Part shown: positions 24,432 through 38,367 of the stretch, piece after piece
How positions within the stretch are numbered: position 1 is the first letter of the stretch
Layout: every line of letters starts with the position of its first letter
Source of the DNA: Micrococcaceae bacterium Sec5.1
Lineage (GTDB): Bacteria; Actinomycetota; Actinomycetes; Actinomycetales; Micrococcaceae
Direction: 5' to 3'
Assembly: GCA_039636795.1 (NCBI GenBank)
Contig: CP143430.1
Location: 5,146,001-5,210,000, forward strand
Length of the DNA stretch: 64,000 nucleotides
Position numbers and translations under genes: made by a program
The notes under the pieces: model-generated
Database searches by the model: none
The model's input: the letters and a program-made list of their open reading frames with translations, nothing else
Told to the model about the DNA's origin: nothing

Positions 24432-25445
24432 TTAGCTGCATGCCGCAACTGGTAGGTCCTGCCACTGGGGACGGCATCCGATGCCGAGGAGTCCGAAGAC
24501 GGTGTTGACGGATTCGCGGAGGGTTTCAAGCTGCGCCCGCGAGCGCCGATGGGCGGCAGTTGCTTCTGCCACTGTGGTTTTCCGAAAACGGACTTTGTCC
24601 CCTGGCCGTGCTTGGGCCAGGACGTCCAGTCCGGCGCTGGTTACTACTGCGAGTACCGGATACCCGGCGGTGACGCCGCGTCCCCGGTGCAGTACCAGCA
24701 ACTCTTCCCTTGAAGGAACCTCGACGGCGCCCACTGGCACGCCGCGGGAAAGCACCTCGCCGCTGGAGGTTCTTTCCGGAAGGTCTCCGCCAAGCCGCAG
24801 GCCGATGTGGTTGCTGCGGCCGCTGACGGTGTACTCCGAAGTGAAGAGCAGGCCACCGGATTCGCCAAACTCGGCGATGTCCGGTCCGTCGGTCACATCG
24901 ACCGACAGGTCTGATCCCATGGTTGGCCGTTCAAGGCCCAACCGGAAAAGGGGGAGGTCGAAGTAAGGCTGGCGTACCGGCCCCACGCTCCGACGGATGG
25001 GAAGGCTGGTACCTTCCTTGAGCTGGAGTCCAAAGCCCACCACGGTGTCCGGGGCTACACTGCCAAGCAGCGTGTCTGCCTCGATGGAACCATGGATAGC
25101 GAGGTAGGCGCGCAGTCCGCTATGAAGTCGACGAATGGACACTGATTCTCCCGCCCTCACTGACACCGGTTCCCATTGGCTCGATGGGCGACCGGCGACG
25201 GTGAGCGTGAGAGGGGTTCCGGTGACTGCGATCAGGATGTCAGTGGTGGCTTTCATCCGAAAGTCGAGGGCCGTGATCTCCACCAACGGATCGTTGTCCA
25301 AATTGCCCACCAAAATGTTTGCCGCTCGGGCTGAGTACTGGTCCAAAGCTCCGTTGACCGGCAACCCGAAACGGGGGCCGCGTGTACGTCCGAGGTCCGT
25401 GACGACCGAGTTGCCGGGCTGCTGGATCAGGATTCCGCCGTTCAT
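24432..25445 (-). CDS. pxpC: 5-oxoprolinase subunit C (biotin-dependent carboxyltransferase-like)
   Basis: 337 aa from the ATG at 25445, overlapping the pxpB stop by 4 bases. KipA/AHS2 (allophanate hydrolase subunit 2-like) domain: ILIQQPGNSVVTDLGRTRGPRFGLPVNGALDQYSARAAN at the N-terminus, FTVAGYPVLAVVTSAGLD-type region near the end (GVTAGYPVLAVVTS). With PxpA and PxpB it forms the bacterial ATP-dependent 5-oxoprolinase, which opens 5-oxo-L-proline to glutamate. The start is well placed at the conserved MNGGILIQQPG. Confidence 0.92.
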   Translation of the reverse strand: MNGGILIQQPGNSVVTDLGRTRGPRFGLPVNGALDQYSARAANILVGNLDNDPLVEITALDFRMKATTDILIAVTGTPLTLTVAGRPSSQWEPVSVRAGESVSIRRLHSGLRAYLAIHGSIEADTLLGSVAPDTVVGFGLQLKEGTSLPIRRSVGPVRQPYFDLPLFRLGLERPTMGSDLSVDVTDGPDIAEFGESGGLLFTSEYTVSGRSNHIGLRLGGDLPERTSSGEVLSRGVPVGAVEVPSREELLVLHRGRGVTAGYPVLAVVTSAGLDVLAQARPGDKVRFRKTTVAEATAAHRRSRAQLETLRESVNTVFGLLGIGCRPQWQDLPVAACS

Positions 25446-26194
25446 GGCCGCACTCCGGATGCCGACGGAGCCAGCTCCAGCGGAGCCAGTTCCAGGCCTG
25501 CGTAATTGTTGAAGTCCTCGGCATGGATCTCCCGGAAACGCAGGATGTCGCCCGGCTTGTACGGGACCAACGGTTCCCGGCGGATGTTCAGGACTGACAA
25601 GGGGGTTTGGCCAATGACGCACCAGCCACCGGGGGCCACAGCCGGAGCGATGACCGCTTGGCGGCCGGCGACTGCAACAGCACCTGCCGGAACACTCAGC
25701 CTGGGATCTTTGAGGCGGGGTACGGGCTTGGGGAACGCAGGCCCGTCCATCATGGGCGAACCTGCAGGCGCACCCAGGCAACGAACCGTGTACGTTTTTT
25801 CGGTGTGGAGCCGGATGACTTCCTCGGTATCAATCCCCTGATACAGCGCAACGCGCTCCAGGTCCGGCCCGTAATGGCCGCCATAGACCACGGGAACATC
25901 GAACTCGCGGGGGGCCGTTGCCGGTTCTCCCGTACGTCCAATTTCAAGCAGTCCGAGTTTCACGAATGCCCGTACCTGCCGGGCGGAAACCAGAATGGGA
26001 TCGAATTCAACGAGTACCGAATCGTATGTGGGAACCGCGCCGTGAAGGCCCTCGGCGCCGCAGTTTTCCAGCCACTGGGCCAGTCCATGCACTGTAAGCC
26101 AGTTCTCTTCGCTTGCCTCCGAGATCGCGACTACACGCAGTGCGGAGTCTCCGGATTCGTAGACTTCGGTGGGGACCGTTGTAAGCACGGACAT
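25442..26194 (-). CDS. pxpB: 5-oxoprolinase subunit B (KipI/AHS1 domain)
   Basis: 250 aa from the ATG at 26194, one base after the pxpA stop. AHS1 cyclophilin-like domain: ALRVVAISEASEENWLTVHGLAQWL early on, YDSVLVEFDP, FDVPVVYGGHYGPDLERVA and a C-terminal FLGAPAGSP-like motif (CLGAPAGSP) followed by PRLSVPAGAVAVAGRQAVI. Partner of PxpC in 5-oxoprolinase; the older name KipI reflects the B. subtilis kinase inhibitor. Overlaps pxpC by 4 bases, confirming an operon. Confidence 0.93.
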   Translation of the reverse strand: MSVLTTVPTEVYESGDSALRVVAISEASEENWLTVHGLAQWLENCGAEGLHGAVPTYDSVLVEFDPILVSARQVRAFVKLGLLEIGRTGEPATAPREFDVPVVYGGHYGPDLERVALYQGIDTEEVIRLHTEKTYTVRCLGAPAGSPMMDGPAFPKPVPRLKDPRLSVPAGAVAVAGRQAVIAPAVAPGGWCVIGQTPLSVLNIRREPLVPYKPGDILRFREIHAEDFNNYAGLELAPLELAPSASGVRP

Positions 26195-26195
26195 G

Positions 26196-26984
26196 TCAGG
26201 CCGCCTTCCTCTTGGCATGCATGACCTCGGCGAGCGGGGCGAGGCGGACACCCGCTGAGACGAGCTCCGAGCGGATCAAGCGGGCGAGTTTTACGGCACC
26301 GGGGTTGTCCCCGTGCAGGAGGACGGTGTCGACGTCGATATCCATGTCCACGCCGTTGGCGCAGCGGATCTTTCCGTCGACCACCATGCGCAGGGTCCGC
26401 TCCAGGATCTCTGCGGGATCATGCAATACGGCACCGGGCTGGCTGCGGGGAACCAACGTGCCGTTCTCCTGGTAGGCGCGATCCACGATACCTACGATTG
26501 CAACACCGAGTCCGGCGGCACGGGCGGCGGTGGCCAGCTCGCCTTCCTGCGCCACGACGATGAGTTCGCTATCCACCCGCACTGCCGCCTCCGCAACAGC
26601 CTGGGCGTAGTCGGCCCGCACTGCCACCAGGTTGCCGAGCCGGCCGTGCGGCGCGAGATGGGTGACCTTCGTGCCGTGGAACGCGGCGAAACCGTTGAGC
26701 GCACCCAACTGGTAAAGCAGATCGTTCTGAACCTCGCTGGCGGAAAGGGCCATATCGCGCCGGCCGAAACCTCGCAGGTCCGGGAAGCTCGGATGCGCAC
26801 CGATGCCAACCCCACGGCGAACACATTCAGCAACAGTGGTTGCCATAATGTCCGGATCACCGGCGTGGAACCCGCACGCAATATTGGCACTTGTGACGAT
26901 CTCCAGGAGGTCGGAGTCGTCGCCAATGGTGTAGGCGCCAAATCCCTCTCCGAGATCCGCTACAAGATCAATTGTCGGGTTCAC
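26196..26984 (-). CDS. pxpA: 5-oxoprolinase subunit A (LamB/YcsF family)
   Basis: 262 aa; the family is about 250 aa. Motifs: DLVADLGEGFGAYTIGDDSDLLEIVTSANIACGFHAGDP at the N-terminus (D-x-N-E-x-x-G-type start, here DLGEGFG), GVGIGAHPSFPDLRGFGRR and VLLHGDNPGAVKLAR near the end. It is the catalytic TIM-barrel-like part of the PxpABC 5-oxoprolinase. First gene of the leftward operon pxpA-pxpB-pxpC-transporter-SDR, with the divergent LysR gene at 27282. GAAAGAGAATC lies just before the ATG. Confidence 0.94.
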   Translation of the reverse strand: MNPTIDLVADLGEGFGAYTIGDDSDLLEIVTSANIACGFHAGDPDIMATTVAECVRRGVGIGAHPSFPDLRGFGRRDMALSASEVQNDLLYQLGALNGFAAFHGTKVTHLAPHGRLGNLVAVRADYAQAVAEAAVRVDSELIVVAQEGELATAARAAGLGVAIVGIVDRAYQENGTLVPRSQPGAVLHDPAEILERTLRMVVDGKIRCANGVDMDIDVDTVLLHGDNPGAVKLARLIRSELVSAGVRLAPLAEVMHAKRKAA

Positions 26985-31825: not shown

Positions 31826-32629
31826 TCAGTAGCTGTCGCGTTCCGCCGTTTCAGACACGGGAATGAACGTCTCCGCGTACCGTTCGGACGCCCGCGCCAG
31901 GACAGAAACATCGGCGCCTACCAGTACAAAGGAGGCACCGGCGTCGAGATAGGCGCGCGCGGTGGACTCGTTGAAGGCGTTCACGCCTGCTGGCTTGCCG
32001 GCCGCTTTGGCGGCCTCGAGGCAATGCTCGACGACGGCCCTCACCAAGGGATTTTCCTGCTGTCCCAGCAGGCCCATGGAGGCTGCGAGGTCCGAGGGGC
32101 CAAGGAAGATGCCGTCCACGCCGTCGACGGCCAGGATCTCCTCCACGGCCGAAGCCGCTGCCTCTGATTCAATCTGAACCGTGAGGCTGATCGATTCTGA
32201 AGCCGCAGCAAGGTAGTCAGGAACGCGGTTCCAGCGCGAAGCCCTGGCCAATGCCGAACCCACACCGCGAACGCCCAGCGGCGGATAGCGGACGGCGGAA
32301 ACTGCGGACGCCGCTTCGAACGCGGAATTCACCATGGGAATCAGGAGATTCTGCACGCCGAGGTCAAGGTATTGCTTGATGACTACGGTGTCGTTGACCG
32401 GCGGCCGGACCATGGCCTGGACGGGGTAGCCACTTACGGCGTGGAGTTGCGCGAGGATCGATTCAAGGCCATTGGGACTGTGCTCGGCGTCGATCAACAG
32501 CCAGTCCAGCCCGGATCCCGCACAGACCTCAGCCACCAACGGACTACCCGAACAGACCCACATGCCAGCCAACGGACGGCCAGCCTCCGAGAGGGCTGAA
32601 TAGAACGTGGGGTTCAGTCGAAATTGCAT
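31826..32629 (-). CDS. hpaI: HpcH/HpaI aldolase (4-hydroxy-2-oxoheptane-1,7-dioate aldolase)
   Basis: 267 aa. TIM-barrel class II pyruvate aldolase: GMWVCSGSPLVAEVCAGSGLDWLLIDAEHSPNG (with the metal-site acids), MVRPPVNDTVVIKQYLDLGVQNLLIPMV, VQIESEAA and DGIFLGPSDLAASMG. It cleaves 4-hydroxy-2-oxoheptanedioate to pyruvate and succinate semialdehyde at the end of homoprotocatechuate meta-cleavage. The ATG at 32629 lies 16 bases inside the hpaH end, so it is translationally coupled. Last gene of the hpa cluster. Confidence 0.93.
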   Translation of the reverse strand: MQFRLNPTFYSALSEAGRPLAGMWVCSGSPLVAEVCAGSGLDWLLIDAEHSPNGLESILAQLHAVSGYPVQAMVRPPVNDTVVIKQYLDLGVQNLLIPMVNSAFEAASAVSAVRYPPLGVRGVGSALARASRWNRVPDYLAAASESISLTVQIESEAAASAVEEILAVDGVDGIFLGPSDLAASMGLLGQQENPLVRAVVEHCLEAAKAAGKPAGVNAFNESTARAYLDAGASFVLVGADVSVLARASERYAETFIPVSETAERDSY

Positions 32630-33399
32630 GTCACGACTCCCAAAGGTCCGTAGTCCGCGTGTACGGTATCACCTTTGTACACCCACATGGGGCGAGTAAA
32701 CGAGCCCGCAAGGATAATATCTCCGGCCTTCATCGAGTCCCCGTGGGCGGCGATCTTATTGGCCAACCAGTGGACGCCATTGGCCGGGTGATCCAGCACT
32801 CCGGCTGCCACTCCGGTCTCTTCCACAGTCTGGTTTTTGTACAGAATCGCGGAGACCCAGCGGAGGTCGACGGCGTCGGGACGCACTGGTCGGCCTCCTA
32901 TCACCATGGCCCCCATGGCGGCATTGTCCGAGATGGTGTCCACGATGGTCCGGCCCTCCATTTCGATCCTGGAGTCCAGGATTTCGAGGGCCGGAACAAC
33001 GTAGTCGGTTGCGTTGAGGACATCGAAAATCGTGCAGCCAGGGCCCTTGAGCCCGTCCTTCAGGACGAATGCGAGCTCCACCTCGACGCGAGGGTGCGTG
33101 TACTGGTCCCATTGCACGGAGCAGCCGGTTTCGAGGACCATGTCATCGAAGATCGCCCCGTAGTCCGGCTCGGTGATACCGGTAGCGGCCTGCATTGCTT
33201 TGGACGTGAGGCCGATCTTGCGCCCCACCAACGTTCGCCCAGCTTCCTCGTTCCGTCGCCGCCACAACTGCTGGACGGCATAGGAATCCTCCACCGTCAT
33301 GTCAGGGTAGCGGGCGGTGAGGCGCGGCACCGGTTTGCGCTTCCGGCCGGCCTCGAGCAGTTCGTCGGCAATGGCTTCGATCGTCTTCGCGTCCATCAT
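32614..33399 (-). CDS. hpaH: 2-oxohept-3-ene-1,7-dioate hydratase
   Basis: 261 aa, MhpD/HpaH-like member of the FAH superfamily. Motifs: RYPDMTVEDSYAVQQLW and LVGRKIGLTSKAMQAATG, then VEVELAFVLKDGLKGPG (metal-site E-x-E) and PALEILDSRIE. It adds water to 2-oxohept-3-enedioate, giving 4-hydroxy-2-oxoheptanedioate for HpaI. The start ATG-ATG pair at 33399 lies 3 bases after the hpaD stop, so the two genes are coupled. Cytoplasmic, Mg-dependent. Confidence 0.92.
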   Translation of the reverse strand: MMDAKTIEAIADELLEAGRKRKPVPRLTARYPDMTVEDSYAVQQLWRRRNEEAGRTLVGRKIGLTSKAMQAATGITEPDYGAIFDDMVLETGCSVQWDQYTHPRVEVELAFVLKDGLKGPGCTIFDVLNATDYVVPALEILDSRIEMEGRTIVDTISDNAAMGAMVIGGRPVRPDAVDLRWVSAILYKNQTVEETGVAAGVLDHPANGVHWLANKIAAHGDSMKAGDIILAGSFTRPMWVYKGDTVHADYGPLGVVTCNFD

Positions 33400-33402
33400 G
33401 GT

Positions 33403-34500
33403 TTAGACCTGTGCCCCCAACTTGAAACCTTCAGCAGCCTCGCCGGATGAACCCGAGGGACGAGTGTAGGAGAATCCGTCAGCGCCTACGGTGACCGCCA
33501 TTTCGGACTTCTCTTCGCGTTCGATGACGGGCTGGGGGTTGCCGTCGAGGTCCAGGACCAGGGAGGCCTCGGTGTACCAGGACGGGACCACGGGGTTGCC
33601 CCACCAGTCGCGGCGCTGGTTGTCATGGACGTCCCACGTGACGGTGGGGTTGTCCGGATCGCCGGTGTAGTAGTCCTGGGTGTAGATCTCCACGCGGTGG
33701 CCATCCGGGTCAAGGATGTAGAGGTAGAACGCGTTGGACACGCCGTGGCGTCCAGGGCCGCGTTCGATCCGGTCGGAGATGCGCAGGGCGCCCATTTTGT
33801 CGCAGATCTGGATGATGTTGTGCTTCTCGTGTGTGGAGAACGCGATGTGGTGCAGGCGCGGTCCGTTGCCGCCGGTCAACGCAGTGTCGTGCACAGTCTG
33901 CTTGCGGTGCATCCACGCGGCGTACGTGACGCCGTCGGAATCCTTGATGTCTTCGGAGACGCGGAAGCCGAGGTCCTCCAGGTACTTACGGCCGCGGGGC
34001 ACGTCCGGGGTGACCTGATTGAAGTGGTCCAGGCGGACCAGTTCGCCGGCGGAGTAGAGGTCGTAGCGTTGGGTGAGGCGCTCCACGTGCTCCACGTCGT
34101 AGAAGAACTCATACGGGAAGCCCAACGGGTCCTCCACCCGGACGGAGTCGCCCACGCCCTTGGTGAAGCCTTCCTTGCGGCGTTCAACCCGGCAGCCGAG
34201 TTCGCGGTAGTAGGCCTCGGCAGCGTCCACCTCGGCTGGGGACTTCACGCGGTAGGCGAAGGCAGCGGCAGCGGCGACCGGTCCCTTGCGGAGGACCAGG
34301 TTGTGGTGGATGAACTCCTCGAAGGAGCGCAGGTAGATGGTGTTCTCGTCCTCCTCTGTGACATGCAGTCCCAGGAGGTCAACGTAGAACGCACGGGACT
34401 TGGCGAGATCCGTGACCACGAGTTCAAGGTAGGCGCAGCGGACGATATCCGGGGCCGGGACCGTGGGGGTGGGGATGGGGCCAGTGAAGGGGTTGCTCAT
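33403..34500 (-). CDS. hpaD: 3,4-dihydroxyphenylacetate (homoprotocatechuate) 2,3-dioxygenase
   Basis: 365 aa, a type I (vicinal oxygen chelate) extradiol dioxygenase of the Mn/Fe homoprotocatechuate group; sequence closely follows the Arthrobacter globiformis MndD pattern. The 2-His-1-Glu metal ligands are at H159 (RLDHFNQV), H218 (RLHHIAF) and E271 (HRVEIYTQDYY), 4 residues beyond the H155/H214/E267 numbering of the B. fuscum enzyme. It opens the ring of homoprotocatechuate to 5-carboxymethyl-2-hydroxymuconate semialdehyde. Metal (Mn or Fe) is not decided by these ligands. Start after GAAAGGGG-like site; 30 bases downstream of hpaE. Confidence 0.95.
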   Translation of the reverse strand: MSNPFTGPIPTPTVPAPDIVRCAYLELVVTDLAKSRAFYVDLLGLHVTEEDENTIYLRSFEEFIHHNLVLRKGPVAAAAAFAYRVKSPAEVDAAEAYYRELGCRVERRKEGFTKGVGDSVRVEDPLGFPYEFFYDVEHVERLTQRYDLYSAGELVRLDHFNQVTPDVPRGRKYLEDLGFRVSEDIKDSDGVTYAAWMHRKQTVHDTALTGGNGPRLHHIAFSTHEKHNIIQICDKMGALRISDRIERGPGRHGVSNAFYLYILDPDGHRVEIYTQDYYTGDPDNPTVTWDVHDNQRRDWWGNPVVPSWYTEASLVLDLDGNPQPVIEREEKSEMAVTVGADGFSYTRPSGSSGEAAEGFKLGAQV

Positions 34501-34530: not shown

Positions 34531-36075
34531 TTAGCTGTCGCCCGCGGAAGCGGAGTCGTCGATGCTGCCGAACTTGGGGGTGTGCACGGAGCCGAGGGTG
34601 ATGTGCACGGCCTGCTGGTCGGTGTAGAAATCGATGGAGCGGTAGCCGCCTTCGTGGCCCAAGCCGGAGGCCTTGACGCCACCAAACGGGGTGCGGAGGT
34701 CGCGGACGTTGTGGCTGTTGAGCCACACCATGCCGGCTTCGACGTTCTGGGAGAAGTTGTGGGCACGGGTCAGGTTCTGCGTCCAGATGTAGGCCGCCAG
34801 GCCGTACTTGGTGTTGTTCGCCAAGGCGAGGGCTTCGTCGTCGTTCTCAAACGGCGTGATGGCCACGACGGGACCGAAGATTTCCTCCTGGAAGATGCGC
34901 GCATCAGGCGCGACGTCGGCAAACACCGTAGGTGCAATGTAGTTGCCTTCGGGCAGGTGGTCGGGTCGGCCGCCACCGGCAAGAAGCCGGCCTTCAGACT
35001 TGCCGATCTCCACGTACGACGCCACTTTCTCGTAGTGCTCGGGGTGGACCAGCGCGCCCACCTGGGTCTTGGGATCGTGGGGATCGCCCACCACGATGTT
35101 CTTGGCACGGGCAGCGTACTTTTCGCAGAATTCGTCGTAGATGCCCCGCTCCACCAGGATGCGTGAGCCGGCGGTGCAGCGTTCGCCGTTGAGGGAAAAG
35201 ACACCGAACAGGGCGGAGTCGATGGCGGCGTCCAGATCGGCATCGGCGAACACGACGCACGGGGACTTCCCACCGAGCTCCATGGACAAGCCTTTGAGGT
35301 TGGCGGCCGCATTGCGGAAAATCGTCTGGCCAGTGGTGGTCTCACCGGTGAAGGAGATCAGCGGCACGTCCGGGTGCTTTACCAGGGCATCGCCGGCTTC
35401 TTCGCCCAGGCCGTTGACCAGGTTGAACACGCCGTCGGGAAGGCCAGCATCCTTGAAGATCTGCGCCCATAGTGATGCGGACAAAGGCGTGAACTCGGCA
35501 GGCTTGAGGACCACGGTGTTGCCGGTAGCCAGCGCCGGAGCGAGCTTCCAGGACTCAAGCATGAACGGGGTGTTCCACGGCGTGATCAAGCCCGCGACGC
35601 CGATTGGTTTGCGGTTCACGTAGTTGATCTGTGAGCCGGGGACCTTCATGGCGTCATCGAACTGTGCCACGATCAGGTCCGCGAAGAAGCGGAAGTTCTC
35701 GGCTGAACGCAACGCCTGGCCCTTGGATTGGGTGATCGGGAGGCCGGTATCAAAGGTCTCCAGCTCGGCCAGGCGCTCTTCCTGGGCCTCCACGGCGTCG
35801 GCGATTTTGTTCAGCACCCGGGCGCGTTCGCGCGGCTTCATCCTCGGCCACGGGCCATTGACGAACGCTTCACGGGCGGCGGCCACGGCGAGGTCGATGT
35901 CTTCCTTCTGGCCGGCGGCTGCCGTGGCGTAATTTCCGTTGGATACCGGGTCCAGGACGTCAAAAGTCTTCCCGGAAACGGAGTCTACGAACTCGCCGTT
36001 GATGAAGTGCTGGATGTGCGTGGGGAGGTTCTCCGGCACGTGATGCTTTGCTGATGTTTCTACAGGGGTCGTCAT
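34531..36075 (-). CDS. hpaE: 5-carboxymethyl-2-hydroxymuconate semialdehyde dehydrogenase
   Basis: 514 aa, NAD-dependent aldehyde dehydrogenase. Catalytic C300 (NGERCTAGS), general base E266 (MELGGKSP) and N168 (TPWNTP) are all present; Rossmann motif FTGETTTGQTIF follows. It oxidises the semialdehyde made by HpaD to 5-carboxymethyl-2-hydroxymuconate. AAAAGGAAG precedes the ATG. It follows a large inverted repeat (36096-36158) and precedes hpaD by 30 bases in the same direction. Placing with HpaD identifies it, since related aldehyde dehydrogenases look alike. Confidence 0.93.
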   Translation of the reverse strand: MTTPVETSAKHHVPENLPTHIQHFINGEFVDSVSGKTFDVLDPVSNGNYATAAAGQKEDIDLAVAAAREAFVNGPWPRMKPRERARVLNKIADAVEAQEERLAELETFDTGLPITQSKGQALRSAENFRFFADLIVAQFDDAMKVPGSQINYVNRKPIGVAGLITPWNTPFMLESWKLAPALATGNTVVLKPAEFTPLSASLWAQIFKDAGLPDGVFNLVNGLGEEAGDALVKHPDVPLISFTGETTTGQTIFRNAAANLKGLSMELGGKSPCVVFADADLDAAIDSALFGVFSLNGERCTAGSRILVERGIYDEFCEKYAARAKNIVVGDPHDPKTQVGALVHPEHYEKVASYVEIGKSEGRLLAGGGRPDHLPEGNYIAPTVFADVAPDARIFQEEIFGPVVAITPFENDDEALALANNTKYGLAAYIWTQNLTRAHNFSQNVEAGMVWLNSHNVRDLRTPFGGVKASGLGHEGGYRSIDFYTDQQAVHITLGSVHTPKFGSIDDSASAGDS

Positions 36076-36160: not shown

Positions 36161-36829
36161 TTAGTTGGTAGTGGCGAGGTACGCGTCCAGTGTTGCGGCC
36201 CGGTGCCGGCGTGCAGCGTGTTCGATGGTGTCGGCGTCCGCTCCAGACTCGATGAGTTGCAGCAACGCCTCGTGTTCGCGCACCGATTCCTGCGCGCGGC
36301 CGGGAACGAAGCGGAACGTCGACGAGCGGAGCGACGCGAGCCGGTTCCATCCGCGGTGGACCAGATCGAGAATGTGCGGATTGGGGCAGTGTTCAAAGAG
36401 GACGCTGTGGAAGTCCTGGTTCAATGCAGTGAAACGAACGGGATCGAAGTGCTCCAGGCATTCCCGCATTTCCTCGTTCACGGCGCGGGCCCGGGCAATC
36501 GCAACGGAATCAATCAACGGCGCGGACAACGCAGTGGCGGCACCCTCCACAATGCTCAGCGTCTGCATCGTGTACAAATACTCGGTGGGATCAATTCCGG
36601 AGACGGTGGCACCAACGTTCCGCTCGAACTTCACCAGGCCTTCGGCTTCCAAGCGGCGGATCGCTTCCCGCACGGGGACCACGCTGAAGCCCAGGTCCTC
36701 GGCAATCTTTGCGAGCACCAGCCGGTAACCCGGCGTGTAGATGCCTTCCACGATCCTGGCCTTGACGGCGGTATACGCCTGCTGGGACTTGCTTTGTGCA
36801 GCGGCGCTTTCGACGGCGGTTTCAGTCAC
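36161..36829 (-). CDS. GntR-family regulator (FadR/FCD subfamily)
   Basis: 222 aa. N-terminal wHTH (~15-78): AYTAVKARIVEGIYTPGYRL, DLGFSVVPVREAIRRLEAEGLV, where V-P-V-R-E-A-x-R-x-L is the GntR recognition helix. C-terminal all-helical FCD domain (~90-210) with His/Asp positions (e.g. DFHSVLFEHC, ESVREHEALLQLIESG) that usually hold a metal. It overlaps the hpaG end by 8 bases and lies within the hpa cluster, so it is the likely local regulator; the palindrome 38356-38367 before hpaG fits a FadR-type operator. Confidence 0.92.
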   Translation of the reverse strand: MTETAVESAAAQSKSQQAYTAVKARIVEGIYTPGYRLVLAKIAEDLGFSVVPVREAIRRLEAEGLVKFERNVGATVSGIDPTEYLYTMQTLSIVEGAATALSAPLIDSVAIARARAVNEEMRECLEHFDPVRFTALNQDFHSVLFEHCPNPHILDLVHRGWNRLASLRSSTFRFVPGRAQESVREHEALLQLIESGADADTIEHAARRHRAATLDAYLATTN

Positions 36830-38318
36830 TTTGGGCTCCTTGCCGGCTCTGCCAATCAGTAAACCTGGCCTGCCACTCCTTGTTCATGGGGTACAAACCA
36901 TCAACACTGTTGCCTTCCTTGACCATCTGGAAGATGAACGCTTCTTCCCTTTCCTGCTGGATGCAGTCATCCACCAGTTCCTCGGCGATGGCCGGCGGGA
37001 TCACCAGGATGCCGTCCGAATCGGCAACGATGATGTCTCCCGGCTGAACTGTTGCACCACCGCAGGCGATGGTGATGTCCGTATCCCAAGGAATGTGCCG
37101 GCGGCCCAGGACTGCCGGGTGCGGATTCGCAAAGTACGTTGGCATCTCGAGATCGGCCACTGCGGAGTAGTCGCGGACGCCGCCGTCGGTGATGATCGCA
37201 GCGGCTCCACGGACCTGGGCACGCAGCGCGAGGATGTCGCCAACCGTGCCGGTGCCCTTCTCGCCGCGGGCCTCCATCACGAGGATTTCGCCTTCATTCA
37301 CGGAGTCGATCGCGCGTTTCTGTGCATTGAATCCCCCACCGTGGGTCTTGAACAGATCCTCGCGGTTGGGCACATAGCGCAGGGTCCGAGCCAGTCCAAC
37401 CACCTTGCGGTCCGGGCGCGTGGCCTGCAGGCCGTCGATGCTCACGTTGTTCAGTCCGCGCTTGCGGAGCTGGGAAGAAAGCGTGGCTGTTGCGACGCTT
37501 TCCAGCTTCGCCTTCAGCTCGGGCGTCAACACACTGGCGGCAGGTGCGAGTCCGGCGGCTTCACGCGATCCGAACGCCTCTTCCCGCTGGGTGTCATCAG
37601 TCTTGGGCTTCGCGCCAAAGTCCGCGAACGGCGTCGTACCTTCCGTTACTTTGGTGGTCAGGCGGCCGCTGCTGAAACCGCCGCCACTTACCTCAATTTC
37701 GACGACGTCACCGGGCTTGGCAACCGACGCGCCGGCAGGGGTGCCGGTGAGGATAATGTCGCCCTCTTCGAGCGTGAGCAACTGGGAGAGGTCCGCGACG
37801 AGTTGTGTGAACGGGAAGAGCAGGTCCTCGGTGGTGTCGTCCTGGACGAGGTCGCCGTTGTGCCAGGTGCGGATCTCTAGCTGCGTTGGATCAACGGCGT
37901 CGGCCGGAATGAGCAAGGGCCCTACCGGCGTGAACCCATCGCCGCCCTTGGACCGGACGTTGGAGCCCTTGTCTGCGTAGCGGAGATCGTAGACACCCAG
38001 ATCGTTGGAAGCGGTCACCCACTCGACGTGGCTCCACGCGTCCTCCAGGCCAACGCGGCGGGCTGACTTACCAATGACGAGGGCGATTTCGCCTTCATAA
38101 CCAAGAAGTTCGCAGCCGGCAGGGCGTTCAATGATGCCCGGAGCCTCCGCGGAACCAAGCGCCAGGGAAGATGGCGGCTTCAAGAAGTACGACGGCTGCC
38201 CAGGGGTGCGTCCGCGCTGGGCAGCACGGCTAGGGTAATTGATATGGACGGCAATGACTTTGCGCGTACGGGCCAGCATGTCTTGGCTGACTTCCTCGGT
38301 CCGAAACTCCAATGTCAC
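36822..38318 (-). CDS. hpaG: bifunctional FAH-RraA fusion, homoprotocatechuate pathway decarboxylase/isomerase
   Basis: 498 aa in two parts. Residues ~1-235 are a fumarylacetoacetate-hydrolase (FAH) domain with metal ligands E75, E77 (YEGEIALV) and D106 (NDLG), plus K124 (SKGGDGF). Residues ~265-480 form an RraA-fold domain with DGGVRD (378-383) and PGDIIVADSDGILVIP. E. coli HpaG has two FAH domains, doing OPET decarboxylation and HHDD isomerisation; here the second is an RraA domain. RraA proteins decarboxylate oxaloacetate, so one domain could decarboxylate and the other isomerise; the assignment is inference. First gene of the cluster. ATG at 38318; the gntR start overlaps its end by 8 bases. 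Confidence 0.88.
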   Translation of the reverse strand: MTLEFRTEEVSQDMLARTRKVIAVHINYPSRAAQRGRTPGQPSYFLKPPSSLALGSAEAPGIIERPAGCELLGYEGEIALVIGKSARRVGLEDAWSHVEWVTASNDLGVYDLRYADKGSNVRSKGGDGFTPVGPLLIPADAVDPTQLEIRTWHNGDLVQDDTTEDLLFPFTQLVADLSQLLTLEEGDIILTGTPAGASVAKPGDVVEIEVSGGGFSSGRLTTKVTEGTTPFADFGAKPKTDDTQREEAFGSREAAGLAPAASVLTPELKAKLESVATATLSSQLRKRGLNNVSIDGLQATRPDRKVVGLARTLRYVPNREDLFKTHGGGFNAQKRAIDSVNEGEILVMEARGEKGTGTVGDILALRAQVRGAAAIITDGGVRDYSAVADLEMPTYFANPHPAVLGRRHIPWDTDITIACGGATVQPGDIIVADSDGILVIPPAIAEELVDDCIQQEREEAFIFQMVKEGNSVDGLYPMNKEWQARFTDWQSRQGAQSD

Positions 38319-38355: not shown

Positions 38356-38367
38356 ATCGTATACGAT
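38356..38367. promoter_or_regulatory. GntR/FadR-type palindromic operator before hpaG
   Basis: ATCGTATACGAT is a perfect 12-bp palindrome with the core GTATAC typical of FadR-subfamily GntR operators. It lies 38 bases before the hpaG ATG, in the gap to the divergent YdeI-like gene. The GntR protein at 36161 is the presumed ligand. Confidence 0.7.

Follow-up and report, generated by a model that had tools for sequence, protein, structure and literature searches.

A FAH-RraA fusion protein as the probable replacement of HpaG in actinobacterial homoprotocatechuate operons

In the window (the whole 64-kb stretch of DNA that was analysed), a single open frame at positions 36822..38318 of the minus strand encodes a 498-aa protein in which a FAH domain is fused to an RraA domain. 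This fusion is a real and widespread actinobacterial variant of the HpaG step. Very probably, it replaces HpaG, whichever half does what, because all 47 genomes with a strong HpaD carry a fusion nearby, the gene order around it is conserved, and HpaF is nearly absent. Our preferred reading, to which we give a probability of about one half on the strength of sequence comparisons, is that the fusion would do the work of HpaG and HpaF together, the FAH half isomerising the tri-acid and the RraA half removing the C1 unit.

The fusion protein and its operon

The joining of a FAH domain to a domain of the RraA/HMG-aldolase type, as proposed in the initial annotation, is confirmed by profile matches, the call being a choice among the listed families. 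Checked half by half, the protein has one FAH domain (residues 20-214; 37677..38261, minus strand) and one RraA-like domain (residues 277-439; 37002..37490, minus strand), the latter with a match to PF03737 and the RraA fold. The full-length model of its family, NF009399/PRK12764, gives 897.3 bits over residues 7-492 against a cut-off of 444. The FAH-RraA architecture already has an NCBIfam model in NF009399, although a nameless one, and we found no description of such a fusion in the literature as judged by titles, the beginnings of abstracts and text passages. An assembly artefact or a frameshift is ruled out by the single open frame, the match to the full-length family model, and the 48 of 198 genomes in which the fusion scores over the cut-off. 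The protein is below every HpaG/HpcE cut-off (139.5 bits against 276.4 for TIGR02303, the HpaG-C model; 90.2 against 228.65 for TIGR02305; and 121 against 811 for PRK15203). It has one FAH and one RraA domain rather than the tandem FAH pair of HpaG/HpcE, and it is encoded, as HpaG/HpcE is, together with hpaE, hpaD, hpaH and hpaI.

Downstream of the fusion gene, on the same (minus) strand, lie the genes for a GntR/FCD regulator (36161..36829; PF07729 and PF00392), which overlaps the fusion gene by 8 bp; for HpaE, the CHMS dehydrogenase (34531..36075; TIGR02299, 667.6 bits, cut-off 638.35); for HpaD, the homoprotocatechuate 2,3-dioxygenase of the type I extradiol class (33403..34500; TIGR02295, 445.8 bits, cut-off 321.4); for HpaH, the OHED hydratase (32614..33399; TIGR02312, 371.5 bits, cut-off 351.5); and for an HpaI-like aldolase (31826..32629; PF03328), for which TIGR02311 is the best model even though its 305.4 bits are under the cut-off of 368.8. 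These genes of a soil actinobacterium make up a meta-cleavage operon for homoprotocatechuate, an aromatic acid derived from tyrosine, and neither HpaF nor a two-FAH HpaG was found within it. The gene order in E. coli BL21 is hpaG-hpaE-hpaD-hpaF-hpaH-hpaI; here, the fusion occupies the position of hpaG, and hpaF is missing. Past the 3' end of the operon, still on the same strand, are 5-oxoprolinase-like genes related to PxpA and PxpC (24432-26984).

A palindrome, ATCGTATACGAT, is present at 38356..38367, 37 bp upstream of the start of the fusion gene, and this is its sole exact copy in the window. With up to two mismatches it occurs in 27 of 31 upstream regions (26 of 30 distinct loci), as compared to 0.5% of 3,100 mononucleotide shuffles. 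It is the probable operator of the GntR/FCD regulator, whose gene follows that of the fusion.

HpaF was sought beyond the operon as well. The PF02962 model had no match in the genome of the present strain; no control genome was matched in the genome-wide searches, and the sensitivity of the model rests on the 170.9 bits that it gives to E. coli BL21 HpaF. An HpaF hidden elsewhere in this genome is disfavoured, since a query with the E. coli HpaF protein found nothing better than E 0.75. Two tautomerases of the 4-OT type (PF01361) do exist elsewhere, one of which adjoins a second HpaE-like dehydrogenase at 2.73 Mb. With order and phylum taken, here and below, as those of an Arthrobacter-like actinobacterium, PF02962 was matched in two of the 198 genomes of the order, both fusion-bearing and both on contigs other than the hpa contig; in a set of 24 genomes, it was matched in none of the 14 that bear the fusion; and across 296 genomes of the phylum there were six matches (five over the cut-off), none in an HpaD genome. 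For C. aurimucosum, a passage in the genome paper reports hpaGLEDHI with hpaF elsewhere (PMC2830990), and PF02962 had no match in three other Corynebacterium genomes. As HpaF is missing from the operon and was not found in the genome, the reactions of the fusion may go beyond the two of HpaG. At the same time, CHM can isomerise spontaneously, according to a passage in PMC12718150; with two 4-OT-type tautomerases also present, the job of HpaF need not fall on the fusion.

Distribution and variant clusters

In the 198 genomes of the order, HpaD (TIGR02295) was over the cut-off in 51 and the fusion in 48. Whenever HpaD scored more than 400 bits (47 of 47 genomes), the fusion was on the same contig, 2,505-4,788 bp away; in the one fusion genome without an HpaD match (G171), the contig stops 0.7 kb beyond the fusion. 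The association yields a Fisher p of ~1e-39 with the kinship of the genomes ignored. The remaining four HpaD genomes of the order (G089, G117, G145 and G173) belong to one genus, referred to as f9, and have a stand-alone RraA by HpaD. Across the phylum (296 genomes), HpaD was over the cut-off in ten and the fusion was found in five, the same five as in the order sample; the other HpaD genomes have either a stand-alone RraA by HpaD (G327) or a single FAH with a DHDPS-family gene (G252, G278, G300 and G329). These last four rule out a universal need of HpaD for RraA. When both samples are taken together, the fusion is present in 47 of 56 HpaD genomes.

The best 80 matches from a scan of GTDB contigs with an RraA alignment comprised 51 close loci and 29 more distant RraA proteins; as this set was picked by RraA, it is silent on HpaD clusters without RraA. 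The close loci among these matches range from Arthrobacter to Corynebacterium, Gordonia, Rhodococcus, Amycolatopsis and Saccharopolyspora, and 27 of the 51 show the order fusion-GntR-HpaE-HpaD-HpaH-HpaI, in genera that include Arthrobacter, Microbacterium, Cellulomonas, Corynebacterium, Gordonia and Amycolatopsis. The initial annotation had suggested a survey for the fusion in hpa clusters of Micrococcaceae; the fusion was found near HpaD, and confinement to Micrococcaceae is ruled out by the close loci in many actinobacterial families. The operon is also present on plasmid pTC2 of P. aurescens TC1, with an 85%-identical fusion and an HpaD that the gene table does not list. A passage of PMC3534580 reports growth of Arthrobacter sp. 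Rue61a on 4-hydroxyphenylacetate, homoprotocatechuate and tyrosine; by analogy, this growth would lend functional support to the pathway in such bacteria, the operon being known from the relative P. aurescens TC1.

Of the 71 loci that we classified (L064-L134), 20 of them hand-picked, 64 were fused. Seven were not counted as fused: the four f9 loci; L068, which has a second HpaD copy without RraA; L100, where the contig ends within the gene; and L087, where the FAH part is under the threshold. The contig of L087 is labelled Stenotrophomonas maltophilia, its fusion gene is of the actinobacterial type in the RraA tree, and the label is probably due to contamination. HpaE of at least 500 bits was seen in 60 of the 64 fused loci; the exceptions are L069, where the contig ends early, L130, L132, and L134, which has a 58-bit remnant. 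Where FAH is present, HpaE, which makes the tri-acid, tends to be present too. A strict co-loss of FAH and HpaE is not upheld, as L130, L132 and L134 have the fusion but no HpaE of this strength close by. Forty-seven of the 64 fused loci have HpaH and/or HpaI, and 11 have a DHDPS-family gene (L082, L112, L115, L117, L123, L128, L131, L133, L132, L134 and L069; PF00701 in the three tested), never both together, and six show neither in the available stretch. DHDPS-family hydratase-aldolases occur in other meta pathways, and here the gene is likely a one-for-two replacement of HpaH and HpaI downstream. It follows from this pattern that RraA is unlikely to be the hydratase or the aldolase of the pathway.

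The four f9 loci (L064-L067) have a stand-alone RraA with HpaD and HpaI in all four and HpaH in three. No FAH or HpaE match was seen within these 17-kb loci, and no f9 genome has an HpaE over the cut-off (best 410-484 bits against 638); genome-wide, there are three to six FAH-family matches in each, so FAH genes may exist elsewhere. In the RraA tree, the four f9 proteins are nested in the fusion clade under a 35-row branch with support of 100/98. Most likely, then, they descend from fusions that lost FAH. Another stand-alone RraA (L184, in G327) accompanies an HpaD-like dioxygenase and a DHDPS gene without an adjacent FAH, HpaE-like matches of 410 and 232 bits lying 3-6 kb away. As it branches near the base of the tree beside a fusion, its RraA-alone state may be independent of that in f9. 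The reverse arrangement is seen in four HpaD-bearing loci of the same phylum without RraA (L180-L183), each of which has one FAH with an intact dyad; the lid of L180, read separately in its own frame, has the dyad as well.

The active sites of the two halves

In an alignment of 34 fusion rows, one of them the present locus, H25, R31, R35, E75, E77, D106 and K124 of the FAH half are invariant. They include the metal ligands E75, E77 and D106 (38001..38096 from the first to the last codon, minus strand; invariant in 34 of 34) and three residues of the lid segment (residues 25-37; 38208..38246, minus strand). Position 34 is Q in 32 of the 34 and E in the other two. The C-terminal FAH domain of E. 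coli HpaG has the same metal triad, together with a His-Glu dyad in the lid NYADHASE, and the N-terminal domain has neither. At the position of the dyad histidine, the fusion has R31, and the histidine is absent from all 34 fusions; thus, of the triad plus dyad that mark the decarboxylase domain of HpaG, the triad is kept, the dyad His is replaced by Arg, and the place of the dyad Glu (position 34) is taken by Gln in all but two fusions. L173 and L177 (misaligned) were removed before this comparison with HpaG and the single-FAH clusters.

The FAH tree, a small chosen sample of 29 rows from which L180 (FAH gene cut by a run of 100 N) and L187 (misaligned) were left out, places the fusion FAHs in a clade (98/99) within a superclade (100/98), here called SR-type, that they share with stand-alone FAHs of other ring-cleavage clusters and that is separate from HpaG-C and the dyad-bearing FAHs. 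The lid signature VHL(N/T)(Y/H)xSR is common to fusion FAHs and SR-type stand-alone FAHs. The SR-type FAHs without RraA are mostly beside an aldehyde dehydrogenase, and an ADC-fold protein is present in 8 of the 10 such loci examined. In our sample, the loss of the dyad histidine therefore coincides with a partner: RraA in the fusions and, in these eight loci, the ADC-fold protein, beside which the FAH may do the decarboxylation. In several loci (L168, L173, L175, L176 and L186-L189), a FAH lies close to both an HpaE-like dehydrogenase and an ADC-fold protein (MppR-like in L168), and L168 and L176 also have a LigB dioxygenase; these loci possibly represent a further meta-pathway variant.

In the RraA half, D361, R382 and D383 (37170..37238, minus strand) are invariant in the 34 fusions and in the three f9 RraA proteins that were aligned. 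We take D361-X20-R382-D383 to be the D-X20-R-D catalytic motif, a name attributed to Mazurkewich 2014. The RraA tree has 85 rows, with bootstrap values not fully settled and with rows of ambiguous residues and loci with too short an RraA match left out; in it, the present fusion groups with those of Arthrobacter and Pseudarthrobacter. A 403-aa FAH fusion of R. erythropolis pRLCBG43 (L167:7983-9194) has a shortened RraA half without the R-D motif; its gene adjoins those of an HpaD-like dioxygenase and an MhpA-type hydroxylase.

The initial annotation had viewed the protein as an HpaG in which one FAH domain was exchanged for a non-homologous one. This stands insofar as a fusion is at the hpaG place with an RraA fold where the second FAH would be expected, but the protein is not an HpaG in which a single domain was swapped. 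Its FAH half retains its metal ligands; however, it belongs to another clade, lacks the dyad histidine, and scores 139.5 bits where HpaG-C requires 276.4. As both halves are unlike those of HpaG, a simple domain exchange does not describe the fusion.

A possible division of labour

From the architecture, motifs, operon, co-occurrence, phylogeny, and the absence of HpaF and two-FAH HpaG from the operon, we infer catalysis and its assignment to the domains as follows. In this operon, and likewise in the 47 of 56 HpaD genomes that carry it, the fusion would convert the tri-acid CHM, formed by HpaD and HpaE, to the C7 di-acid that HpaH hydrates. The FAH half, with a metal site and no His-Glu dyad, would act as a tautomerase/isomerase of the tri-acid (CHM to OPET), and the RraA half, with the metal/enolate site of HMG/CHA aldolase, an oxaloacetate decarboxylase, would remove the C5 carboxyl as CO2. 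This could proceed through a metal-held dienolate in a vinylogous version of oxaloacetate decarboxylation, giving HHDD/OHED, and the fusion might retain the unstable tri-acid on its way from one site to the other, which the OPETD-HHDDI complex of Acinetobacter may do as well. In HMG/CHA aldolase, according to passages of PMC5065237, Arg123 stabilises the pyruvate enolate, Asp124 binds the metal, and oxaloacetate is decarboxylated too. Such a division agrees with the loss of both the dyad and HpaF, with the active site of RraA, and with the f9 clusters. In the latter, however, there is no HpaE and hence no tri-acid, so RraA must act there on a different C1 unit or substrate. It is rather unlikely, but conceivable, that the RraA half releases C1 units more broadly: it would decarboxylate the tri-acid supplied by a FAH tautomerase that replaced HpaF and, alone in f9, would take the semialdehyde or a related ring-fission product to the hydratase substrate with release of formate. 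If true, the homoprotocatechuate-type meta pathway would thereby have a shortcut that needs no dehydrogenase.

The roles of the halves might instead be distributed differently. The FAH half could be the OPET decarboxylase, perhaps the tri-acid isomerase too, with the RraA half as an HHDD isomerase replacing the metal-free N-terminal domain of HpaG. We regard this as possible although somewhat unlikely. The metal triad and K124 are invariant, as in HpaG-C; RraA survives without HpaE and a cluster FAH, as would a step common to both routes; HMG/CHA aldolase exchanges the methyl protons of pyruvate, which amounts to enolate protonation (a passage in PMC5065237); and the Acinetobacter decarboxylase is said in part of PMC12718150 to work well only with its isomerase partner. 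However, the dyad histidine of HpaG-C is missing, the reactions given for HMG/CHA aldolase in the same passages of PMC5065237 are aldol cleavage and decarboxylation, and C1 removal in the f9 clusters still needs an agent. The missing histidine does not by itself exclude decarboxylation, since FAH enzymes are capable of decarboxylation, and the main role discussed for the dyad concerns the water of the hydrolase reaction (in passages of PMC8398924). Similarly, FAHD1 is described in a passage of PMC12176266 as coupling tautomerase and decarboxylase activities, so a FAH may do more than one step.

It is quite doubtful that only one half is catalytic in the pathway with the other being a structural or regulatory partner that stabilises a complex, because the active-site residues of both halves are invariant across the 34 fusions. 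In A. baumannii, nonetheless, activity depends on the OPETD partner, and a complex is suspected by the authors of that study (passages of PMC12718150), and a degenerate RraA half persists in the 403-aa R. erythropolis fusion. A role of the RraA half as an RNase E-type regulator that is carried along by a metabolic enzyme is highly improbable: the fold of this half and its closest solved structure, S. coelicolor RraAS2 (titled an unusual RNase ES inhibitor), would agree with such a role, but the RNase E regulator model PRK09372 gives 47.8 bits against a cut-off of 136, the D-X20-R-D motif is invariant, and the linkage to hpa genes is close.

Our preferred reading, isomerisation by FAH and C1 removal by RraA, would explain an actinobacterial homoprotocatechuate route without HpaF or a two-FAH HpaG in the operon. 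It would suggest a likely role for the nameless family NF009399, whose model, "fumarylacetoacetate hydrolase family protein", carries no specific function, whereas the fusion studied here is tied to the homoprotocatechuate pathway; and it would correct labels such as "putative dimethylmenaquinone methyltransferase" (P. aurescens TC1). The relatives, RraA without FAH and dyad-bearing FAH without RraA, are natural experiments that make the split between isomerase and decarboxylase testable. The fusion stays within known fold chemistry and is notable for specialists.

HpaG/HpcE of E. coli (PDB 1gtt/1i7o; TIGR02303 plus TIGR02305) resembles the fusion in its operon place, presumably in its net reaction, in being a two-domain single chain, and in the FAH fold and metal triad of its C-terminal domain. 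It differs in having two FAH domains, where the fusion has one FAH, of another clade and without the dyad histidine, joined to an RraA fold, and no HpaF in the operon. In a passage of the 2025 Acinetobacter paper (PMC12718150), the functioning of the two HpaG domains is called ambiguous. HpaG1/HpaG2 (OPETD/HHDDI) of Acinetobacter, Pseudomonas and Burkholderia, as described there, likewise use two cooperating units for the isomerise-decarboxylate step; unlike the fusion, they are separate proteins, both of FAH fold, with CHMI present too. The HMG/CHA aldolase-oxaloacetate decarboxylase (PDB 3noj) is set apart by the FAH partner of the fusion and by LigK/CHA aldolase scores far below the cut-off (74 bits against 304.5 for TIGR02798 and 83.3 against 179 for PRK09262), and a retro-aldol reaction is not needed in fusion clusters because 58 of the 64 fused loci have HpaH/HpaI or a DHDPS-family gene. 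SR-type stand-alone FAHs, such as that of Streptomyces canus NZ_CP107732, share the superclade (100/98) and the lid signature with the fusion; the S. canus cluster is without RraA and has an MppR-like ADC-fold protein instead.
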